This document shows, one piece after another, positions 50,601 to 53,600 of a stretch of 64,000 bases of DNA (its first letter is position 1; the number at the start of each line of letters is the position of its first letter). The DNA comes from Doris montereyensis (taxonomy: Eukaryota; Mollusca; Gastropoda; Nudibranchia; Dorididae). A model generated the notes under the pieces. It saw only the letters and a list, made by a program, of their open reading frames with translations. It was not told the origin of the DNA and ran no database searches. The stretch lies in assembly GCA_037039925.1 (NCBI GenBank), contig JAXRKP010001136.1, positions 15,001 through 79,000 of the forward strand. Reading direction: 5' to 3'. A program made the translations under genes and the position numbers.

Positions 50601-53600
50601 CATTTGTTCACTGGTTTGTTTGTTTGTTTCAGTCTATGTGGGATGTGCTACAGTTGGCGCCGCTGCCTGGTGGTTCATGATCTACGACAAGGGCCCCAGA
50701 CTCAACTACTACCAACTGGTAAACGCACAATGTCTTTTGTCCTCTTGGTCTGGCATAGAATTAGGATGAACTCTGCATTAAAAGTTGAACAAAAGGAATA
50801 TATTTTTTTAGACATCCATCATCAAAGAAAGAACTTTGAAAACCCACATTTATTTAACGCAATTCATTACATATTGAAACTTATTATGAAAGGATAACAC
50901 AAATGCTCTTCACAAATTATGAACAGGCTTAAGTATATTTTGTTATATTTGATCACGGTGTAGAGAGTGTTTGTTGGGTTTTTTGTATAGAGTTAATCCT
51001 TCATGTGGGTTTAAAATAATTTCAATAGCTTTATTTTCATTTTAATGTTTTCCTGTTCATAAAGAAACATTTTTTTCACAGCCGTTGACCTTGTGGTCAG
51101 TTTTGCATTTCTGGTGTTGTGTCTGTTAATGGCACCTAGAGCATGGATGAACTCTGAGGAAGTTTGGCACCGTTGCCAAATGTAGATGGACACTTCAAGT
51201 GACATGTGTCACATTGTTGGATGCCTGCAACTCTGATATCTTCCATGACCAGTTAGTCGTTCGTGTTCAAACTTGTTCTACTTTAGGGCAAGCTTTCTTC
51301 TTTCTTTTTGCCTTTGGCACAAGAGGACACTTGCTTTACGGCACCTTCAAAGCTCTGTATCTCTTGAAAGCTACTCAGCCTTGCTGCCTCCATTTATAAA
51401 TGAGTACCTGGCTGAGGCAGGCAACTGAGGTTGTCAGGATGCTAGTGTAGCAGGAAGCTCTCTTGTAGTAGTATCCTACTGGAGACTTTGAAAACGGCCC
51501 AGGAGGATGAAAGGCATAAAACTGCTTGGCATGAGAGTTCTTTCCTGACCTGAAGATCCATAGAGCTGCTTATCTCTGTTTCTGTGAGGTGAATAGGTAC
51601 AGGGATACAAGATCACCGCCCTCTTGGACGAGATGCTGATGTGTCACAGATTTTCTTATCTTCCAGCCGCAACTGGTACCCATTCACACAGTGATGGAAT
51701 AAGGGAAAAAAACACAAAATATTTACACACATTTCTGAGGGAGACAGGGTCAGATATAGTGAAACGGGGATTCAAGCATAGGACCCATGGGTCTGTAAAA
51801 TGACCCGCTCTTCTAGTCACCACCTAAGGCCACATCAAGGTATATGCTTACATCTGTATCTTCAAGGCCGCCACAACCTTTAACGAGACAGGACGGTATG
51901 TTCATTTCTGTTCTCATGCATGTTTTCTTTTATCTTCTTCTCCCGTCCCGTCACTCCAGACCCATCACATGCAGTGTCCCGCTGAGCCGCCTCTTCAAGG
52001 GAGTTGATTGCCAAATCTTCCAGGCCCCAGAACCCATGACAATGGCTTTGTCTGTCTTAGTAACCATTGAGATGCTCAATGCTTTGAACAGGTAACTCCA
52101 CTTGAAGAAAGGACAAAAGGACGACGTCCAATGGTAGCCACATGTCTTTCCTGCACATCTCTTTCTTCTAACACCCTTTGGTGGAAAGGGTTCAGACCAA
52201 CTCATCTGTCTTGTCACTTTCTATGATTCATCCAATTTTTTTTGTTTTGTTTTGATTTTTTTGTTATCGGAGTCTTTTCTGAAGTACTTTCTCTGGGATT
52301 TTTGTTGTTGTCGCTCAAATTATTTTTACATGATGTATAGGCGTCGGAATTCTCTTTGAACGTTTCAAGAGCAACGGCTGTCATTTGATTGGATACCACT
52401 TGTTTCATGATCCAGAGCTGTGTGAGGTCTTAATCTGAGTCTCCCAAGGATTTTATAGCTCCAAAAAACGTTTTTCCCACTGTAACTGAAGAGATTTTGA
52501 GTCGTTTGTACAGTCAACTTACTCTTGTCATGTCAAGAAGAATGTATGCAATAATTGTTACGTGAAGTAGAAGCAGAAATGTTGGAAGTTCTTTGAAGTT
52601 TTTGCTGATATTTGATTTGATTGATTTTCATAAGTCTTTCAAGACTTTGTAACGAGGTTTTAAAATGATGTCATTAGCTTTCAGTGCAGCCAACTAACTG
52701 CTAAAAGGTGGATTTGTACGCTTTTGTCGAGAGTATACGCCTTTGTTGGTTTCTCCTGTCCACAATAAGTTTTGTTAGTATTTTCGCTTTGTACACCTCT
52801 GGGTTGTCTTTTGATGAATGTAGTCATGTGTGTTTCGGAGTAAGGAGAGTCAAATAATTGAAGGAGCGTCATGTCTGATGATCTGACATGTAGAGCCCAC
52901 ACTGCTTCGATTCTCAACTGTTGCTCTTACTCATCAGATAGGGAAATGAGTTCCTCTGTCTCCGATGATGTTGTTGTTTTCTTAATAATTTGTTGTCTTT
53001 TGTGCTCTGTCCAAAATGGGCCCACACAAAAAAAAAAGGAAGGAAAAAGAAAATCCAGAAGAAAAATCTCCCCACGGACGACACACGACGTACCAATGAA
53101 GCATCGCCATGCTTTGGCCACACCAGTTCTTCCAGTGACCCGATTTGTCACCTGTTGCCCATCCTGGTCACACCTCCCTTCCCCTTCCCTTTCACCCTGT
53201 CCTACCCGTCCCCTCTATCCCCCCCTCCCCCGTCCTCTTATGTTTGACTAATTATTTGACTAACCTCTCCAAGTCATTTGTTGTCTCAGACCCACCAGGC
53301 GCAGTGCTTGAACCAGGACGAAATGTTTGCCGGTATTGACTGCGGAGTCTTTAGCCATCCCAAACCCATGACAATGGCCCTCTGTCTTGGTGGTCATTGA
53401 GATGCTTAACGCGCTCAACAGGTGAGTGAGACAGTGGGGCGGTCCTTCCGTCCGATATGATGACCTACCCACCAACTTGGCATGGGCGCAAAGGGGCGCA
53501 GTAGGGTCGGGGGATGTGTTAGCGTTTGGGATTGTTTGTTGGGTTCTTTCTAGCTGAAGAAGGCATGACATTGAGTGAAAAGGGAGGAGGTGCAAATATA

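Follow-up and report, generated by a model that had tools for sequence, protein, structure and literature searches.

The SERCA gene of the nudibranch Doris montereyensis carries, side by side, two versions of the exon that encodes the M7-M8 luminal loop and helix M8 of the pump, and we regard it as close to certain that these two exons (A and B) are a real alternative pair. On balance, we favour a reading in which A and B are diverged copies of one SERCA exon, likely used one at a time, which would have arisen by a duplication preceding the split between molluscs and flatworms and would retune the response of the pump to luminal Ca2+. We hold with clearly less assurance a broader reading, possible but tentative, in which the pair has served spiralians as a splice switch within the pump since before the mollusc-flatworm split, setting the feedback from store filling; one gene could then give each tissue its own set-point, on top of splicing at the C-terminus. 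Both readings derive from comparing the 64,000-nucleotide stretch of the assembly analysed here (the window) with the proteins of other animals.

The exon with the DKTGTLT motif at 41770, which reads SDKTGTLTTNQM, identifies the gene as a SERCA (P2A Ca2+-ATPase). Its coding exons span 26666 to 61442 (34.8 kb here), and the read-through protein is 90.3% identical to that of Aplysia over 733 residues and 88.5% identical to that of Physella, the closest of the 198 proteins fetched. A first-pass annotation, made from the letters of the sequence, had placed the two exons in this gene, and the coordinates, splice sites, phase and peptides that it gave for both were reproduced in full (Table 1). The exon upstream of the pair ends with the codons CAA CTG, both A and B have an AG before a phase-0 start and AAC AG|GT at the 3' end, and the Ser codon split by this junction (AG|C) is completed by the exon starting at 61328. 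Each exon is 132 bp long as sequenced. A net 2-bp loss was detected by tblastn in exon A and, with a frame change at 53381-53382, in exon B; as the homologues have 44 residues, 44 codons plus two bases from the split Ser codon make up an inferred length of 134 bp, in agreement with the restored length that had been proposed. The pair thus consists of homologous neighbours of equal length as sequenced, with the same phase-0 start and AG end, as expected of tandem exons, and it lies upstream of the L8-9/M9 exon, outside the region of C-terminal splice variants.

Table 1. The A/B exon pair of the D. montereyensis SERCA gene and its flanking exons (positions in the window).
Feature	Position	Strand	Sequence and remarks
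Upstream constitutive SERCA exon (M7)	50632..50718	+	Translation VYVGCATVGAAAWWFMIYDKGPRLNYYQL; phase 0 end ...YYQL; donor GTAAAC
Exon A (M7-M8 luminal loop and M8)	51960..52091	+	THHMQCPAEP-x-LFKGVDCQIFQAPEPMTMALSVLVTIEMLNALN, x at the 2-bp loss; net 2-bp loss near 51988
Intron A-B	52092..53289	+	1198 nt (from coordinates); GT-AG ends
Exon B (alternative copy)	53290..53421	+	THQAQCLNQDEMFAGIDCGVFSHPKPMTMALSVLVVIEMLNALN; 2-bp loss near 53381; donor CAG|GTGAGT
Downstream constitutive SERCA exon (L8-9, M9)	61328..61442	+	ENQSLLVMP, PWINKWLMAAI; 1- and 2-bp losses by eye

The likeness of A to B (E = 7e-9 and 7e-14), together with near-identical orthologous units in relatives, is not due to chance. 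Over the 44 columns of our tree set, the nearest ortholog of exon A is that of Physella (93%) and the nearest ortholog of exon B that of Pomacea (95%). Both exons have a pair of cysteines with 11 residues between them, as annotated, and the same M8 glutamate. No good match to a third copy was found in the window besides A and B, and an Rfam scan returned nothing at gathering scores.

Other features of the locus were observed in passing. Between the SERCA exons at 48341 and 48954 lies a look-alike of a U12-type AT-AC intron (sites 48436 and 48939), with the 5' site ATATCCTTT, the branch-like sequence TTCCTTGAC and the 3' end CAC|AG, judged against the U12 AT-AC consensus. A 44-bp tandem repeat of ~42 copies (61735-63599) is situated just 3' of the last SERCA exon in the window, and broken LINE-like reading frames for endonuclease and reverse transcriptase, recognised by eye, occur upstream of the gene (17633-20711 and 3-584).

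Given the inferred length of 134, for which 134 mod 3 = 2 and 268 mod 3 = 1, skipping both exons or including both shifts the frame, and the earlier argument that both-in or both-out transcripts are broken agrees with this arithmetic. An intron of 1198 nt is too long for the steric exclusion of two splice sites; with its GT-AG ends, both steric exclusion and exclusion by U2/U12 incompatibility are unlikely. Transcripts with both exons or neither would be lost through the frame shift and nonsense-mediated decay, which may help to enforce exclusivity. We scored splice sites with matrices derived from the gene itself (16 acceptors, 16 donors), omitting one unlocated acceptor, an unusual donor near 42615, and the donor and acceptor of the AT-AC intron. 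Exon A scores 7.4 bits at its acceptor and 6.5 bits at its donor. Exon B has a weak acceptor (1.9 bits, equalled or beaten by 487 of the 3432 AG sites in the window) and a donor of 11.9 bits, close to the gene's best of 12.0. As the gene's own acceptors range from -2.9 to 14.5 bits and its donors from 3.3 to 12.0 bits, it is plausible that the sites of both exons are usable, the weak acceptor of B included.

Over 40 codons clear of the losses, A and B differ with a pS of 0.76 (saturated) and a pN of 0.27, and in the M8 part dN is 0.08 and dS 1.88. From these values we infer an old duplication that has probably remained under purifying selection; constraint on exon B itself follows from its conservation in other species. 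The searches on which this conservation is based covered the best 120 of 129 matches to the B unit, the best 120 of 2878 matches to the A form, and all 31 matches to another B form. The 207 proteins fetched were selected for their similarity to A or B, which makes the absence of a form elsewhere weak evidence. Among the matches listed, B occurs at 92-96% identity in five other gastropod genera (Batillaria, Littorina, Pomacea, Biomphalaria and Gigantopelta), and those listed for the B unit also include a chiton, bivalves, cephalopods and many flatworms. A counterparts were recovered among the matches listed for the A form, and the third search added B in Helobdella, Lumbricus and the nemertean Tubulanus. 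Absence of exon B from close relatives, with no purifying selection, had been named at the outset as the finding that would speak against the pair; we find the opposite, with B conserved in the five gastropod genera just listed and present in three more phyla, and with pS far above pN.

In several relatives A and B occur in proteins that are otherwise the same, although these pairs are database entries, some of them from automatic pipelines. The two Littorina saxatilis proteins P0127 and P0004 (1016 aa each, no gaps) are identical at 972 of 972 positions outside the unit, and their 14 differing positions are confined to 875-897 and 908. Outside the unit, identity is 841/841 for the A/B pair of Octopus bimaculoides (P0105/P0068, gaps uncounted), 806/806 for that of Mytilus coruscus (P0144/P0045, gaps uncounted, P0144 with 36 extra residues) and 99.4% of 889 for that of Mya arenaria (P0138/P0024, gaps uncounted), where P0024 is without two stretches and has another C-terminus. 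Variation at the C-terminus is found alongside the A/B choice: Ostrea B forms have three C-termini (P0025-P0027), and Littorina A and B have two each, one of them common to both (P0003, P0004, P0126, P0127).

Three gene models, from Batillaria (P0001), Echinococcus multilocularis (P0002) and Macrostomum (P0140), hold A followed by B in tandem and join them in frame, with the A unit cut short in each. They are likely prediction errors, as a shortened A unit is what would be expected of a gene finder forced to use both exons. Helobdella has A-like and B-like SERCA on separate genes (P0149 and P0203, 84% identical), which suggests that in the leech the two options have been divided between paralogous genes. 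Several proteins of ~1000 residues that are B or B-like come from contigs of only 4.0-5.3 kb (P0009, P0015, P0021, P0052); these are short when set against the 34.8-kb gene here and therefore probably represent cDNA. B is also carried by entries from Tridacna, Lumbricus and Schistosoma japonicum, which we take to be cloned cDNAs. Two sturgeon proteins (P0121, P0122) were considered as vertebrate cases and set aside as model artefacts: the two units within each are nearly identical, and the entries are marked UNVERIFIED_CONTAM.

In human SERCA2 numbering (C875-C887), the A form is marked by E878 and the B form by Q878 with D/E879. The 207 fetched proteins yielded 200 recognised units, which divide into 51 with the B signature, 94 with E878 and 55 with neither; 12 of the 207 proteins are without a unit recognised by the pattern, including P0021, which is B-like with one extra residue. 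An organism name is attached to 33 of the 51 B-signature units, and all 33 are spiralian: 18 molluscan, 12 flatworm, 2 annelid and 1 nemertean. Vertebrates, echinoderms and arthropods are not among these 33. The first-pass annotation had presented the pair as a feature of a mollusc pump, which holds in so far as molluscs have it; it is not theirs alone, but spiralian, extending to flatworms, annelids and a nemertean.

Within the tree set, all 28 A units have E878 and all 23 B units have Q878, across gastropods, bivalves, cephalopods and flatworms, although these counts are no independent test because the A/B labels were assigned by eye from the loop. Two of the 28 A units, both from Macrostomum, also have an acid at 879. 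Residue 873 in this set is M in A and A or S in B, while annelid B forms such as P0203 retain M. A change from T to V two residues before the M8 glutamate was rejected as a conserved difference, since Octopus has V in both forms and flatworm A has L.

We consider it quite probable that the pair has a common origin in early spiralians, with one duplication before the mollusc-flatworm split. The tree comprised 62 hand-chosen units, mostly from named species (28 A, 23 B and 11 others), over 44 columns; 24 of its 54 inner branches were open, and annelid and nemertean B forms were left out. One branch (95/87) brings together seven gastropod and chiton B units, eight from flatworms and one other. 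Weak branches are all that connect bivalve and cephalopod B units to the remaining B units, and two long A units, those of Octopus and Lineus, are placed within B. Constraining all B units to one group improved on the free tree by 1.8 log units (p=0.537). Seven non-spiralian units are closer to molluscan A (0.745) than to molluscan B (0.664), from which A looks ancestral. A search for both exons in other molluscs, followed by a tree, had been suggested as a check; both forms were found in Littorina, Octopus, Mytilus and Mya, and a duplication within molluscs only is rejected, as the AU test does not allow molluscan A and B to form one clade (p=0.0002).

It is nevertheless conceivable, though unlikely, that the exon was duplicated separately in molluscs and in flatworms, with convergence on a common loop. 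The AU test does not reject a clade of flatworm A and B (p=0.459), 44 columns give little resolution, and A-A identity between the two phyla (0.706) is little above that of A-B. Against this, B-B identity between the phyla reaches 0.762 compared with 0.658-0.680 for A-B, the supported branch unites gastropod, chiton and flatworm B units, and the order A then B is alike in a snail, a tapeworm and a free-living flatworm. A single early duplication is our preferred account.

If A and B are chosen between, the resulting two pumps would differ in the M7-M8 luminal loop and helix M8 and nowhere else. In human SERCA2a, according to the available text of a 2025 study (PMC11826342), E877, D878 and E883 of this loop mediate regulation by luminal Ca2+, and C875A breaks the C875-C887 bond and abolishes transport. 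In the commonest change from A to B, the acid at 878 gives way to one at 879 and the two loop cysteines stay; the two forms differ at 878-879 and, in most of the gastropods listed, at 883. Because this shift falls within the loop through which luminal Ca2+ acts on the human pump, it may retune the feedback of store filling on pumping, in addition to the choice of C-terminus. Such retuning by A/B splicing is to us the likeliest function, and a reasonable possibility that we advance tentatively. We also considered, and rejected, that B is always the more acidic form: this holds in gastropods (net loop charge -1 to 0 in A, -3 in B) and fails in flatworms, where A is as acidic as B or more so. Of the A and B units in the tree set, 48 are untruncated, and all of these have the M8 glutamate.

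The annotation had proposed switchable luminal regulation and had pointed to the luminal cysteines as a redox control point (ERp57) in vertebrate SERCA2b. Two alternative exons that swap the loop and M8 are supported, but both cysteines are kept in A and B, which weakens the ERp57/redox part: the presence of a redox site is not what differs, and the acidic residues responding to luminal Ca2+ are a better candidate for the difference. A splice switch for redox control, with the two loops differing in the access of ERp57, ERdj5 or SEPN1 to the disulphide, is in our view improbable. It is consistent with C875 and C887 being the only luminal cysteines of SERCA2a and with a SERCA2b study, cited there, in which the disulphide inhibits transport via calnexin and ERp57 (PMC11826342, in part), as well as with the naming of ERp57, ERdj5 and SEPN1 as SERCA2 partners in the excerpted text of PMC7474598. 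However, the disulphide of SERCA1a/2a is described, in the text available, as required for transport, both cysteines stand at the same spacing in every one of the 51 A and B units in the tree set, and the changes between A and B concern acidic and flanking residues, although the flanking ones could steer a redox partner.

We give still less credence to the view that A and B are real while the protein change hardly matters, the choice serving mainly to set transcript level through frame-shifted transcripts that decay. The frame shifts on skipping or doubling agree with it, but the residues that distinguish A from B are common to gastropods, bivalves, cephalopods and flatworms (with labels given by eye), and neutral protein change does not predict such sharing.

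The small losses in both exons raise the matter of decay. Net losses of 1-2 bp occur in 10 of the 20 SERCA exons read, that is in A, B and 8 of the 18 others, and no net gain was seen. Five constitutive exons show losses by tblastn (39125, 40631, 46676, 47480, 49892) and three by eye (near 42525, 43243 and 61328); judged by eye, most of the sites could sit in short homopolymers or dinucleotide repeats. No exons for SERCA residues ~75-232 (about 158 residues) were located between 27377 and 39125 of the window, and the gene is thus incomplete in this assembly; a search of the window for residues 1-45 gave only ELPAEE at 26665. The region 27377-39125, without the SERCA exons expected there, is likely misassembled. 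We rejected a decay confined to A and B as the source of their 2-bp losses, since similar net losses in 8 of the 18 other exons make assembly error likelier, and the spread of small losses together with the missing residues, in a window without N, is better explained by a faulty assembly than by decay. That the locus is a decaying copy, with exon B a relic and no switch in this animal, is very improbable: the losses in half of the exons and the missing residues would suit it, but the changes are net losses only, mostly at short repeats by eye, the splice sites are in place, the read-through protein retains its high identity to Aplysia, the B region matches Littorina B at 96% identity, and assembly error fits the pattern better.

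If splicing does include A or B one at a time, snails, clams, octopus and flatworms could exchange the portion of their pump on the calcium-store side. A cassette of this kind, altering both the luminal loop and M8 and retained in several phyla, would amount to a natural experiment on a loop for which luminal Ca2+ sensing was recently reported. What sets the filling level of the store becomes directly testable with the two natural pumps of Littorina, which differ at 14 positions and are otherwise identical. Where molluscan SERCA has been taken to be one transcript, the measurements may reflect a mixture.

Mutually exclusive exons are a known kind of gene organisation. Few ion pumps have been studied as much as SERCA, whose splicing is described at the 3' end only in the portions available of PMC3527596, PMC6987452 and PMC5840707; for C. 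gigas, PMC6987452 mentions one gene and one transcript. The C-terminal splicing covered there (SERCA1a/1b, SERCA2a/2b, Artemia, Pinctada) resembles the A/B choice in deriving differently regulated pumps from one gene. It changes the 3' end, whereas A and B alternate inside the protein and one C-terminus in Littorina goes with either form; the annotation's view that the mechanism is unlike C-terminal SERCA splicing is borne out by this position upstream of the L8-9/M9 exon. Among the matches listed from the open-access literature, no report of an internal SERCA exon pair appeared; both A and B sequences are already public, and the pattern seems undescribed in the open-access literature searched. 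The luminal Ca2+ regulation of human SERCA2a concerns the same loop, including residues 878 and 883, but as far as the excerpts of PMC11826342 go, it is a fixed sequence in one isoform, with no splicing, unlike A and B.

Two exon duplications in other genes offer closer parallels in organisation, as far as the text available from each source describes them. The alternative oxidase of the oyster, whose duplicated exon 10 was called the first such molluscan case by its authors, likewise yields two proteins of equal size from a duplicated molluscan exon, but here the last exon of a mitochondrial enzyme is involved and the choice responds to air exposure (PMC5589949). Exons 15a and 15b of NALCN (PMC3557258) are, like A and B, tandem and mutually exclusive, with the ancestral copy first and the derived copy second; they too occur in molluscs, annelids and flatworms and swap a functional stretch of a membrane transport protein. 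The NALCN pair differs from A and B in belonging to another gene, in changing the selectivity filter of a channel, and in being present also in echinoderms and hemichordates, whose SERCA units in our fetched set are not of the B type.
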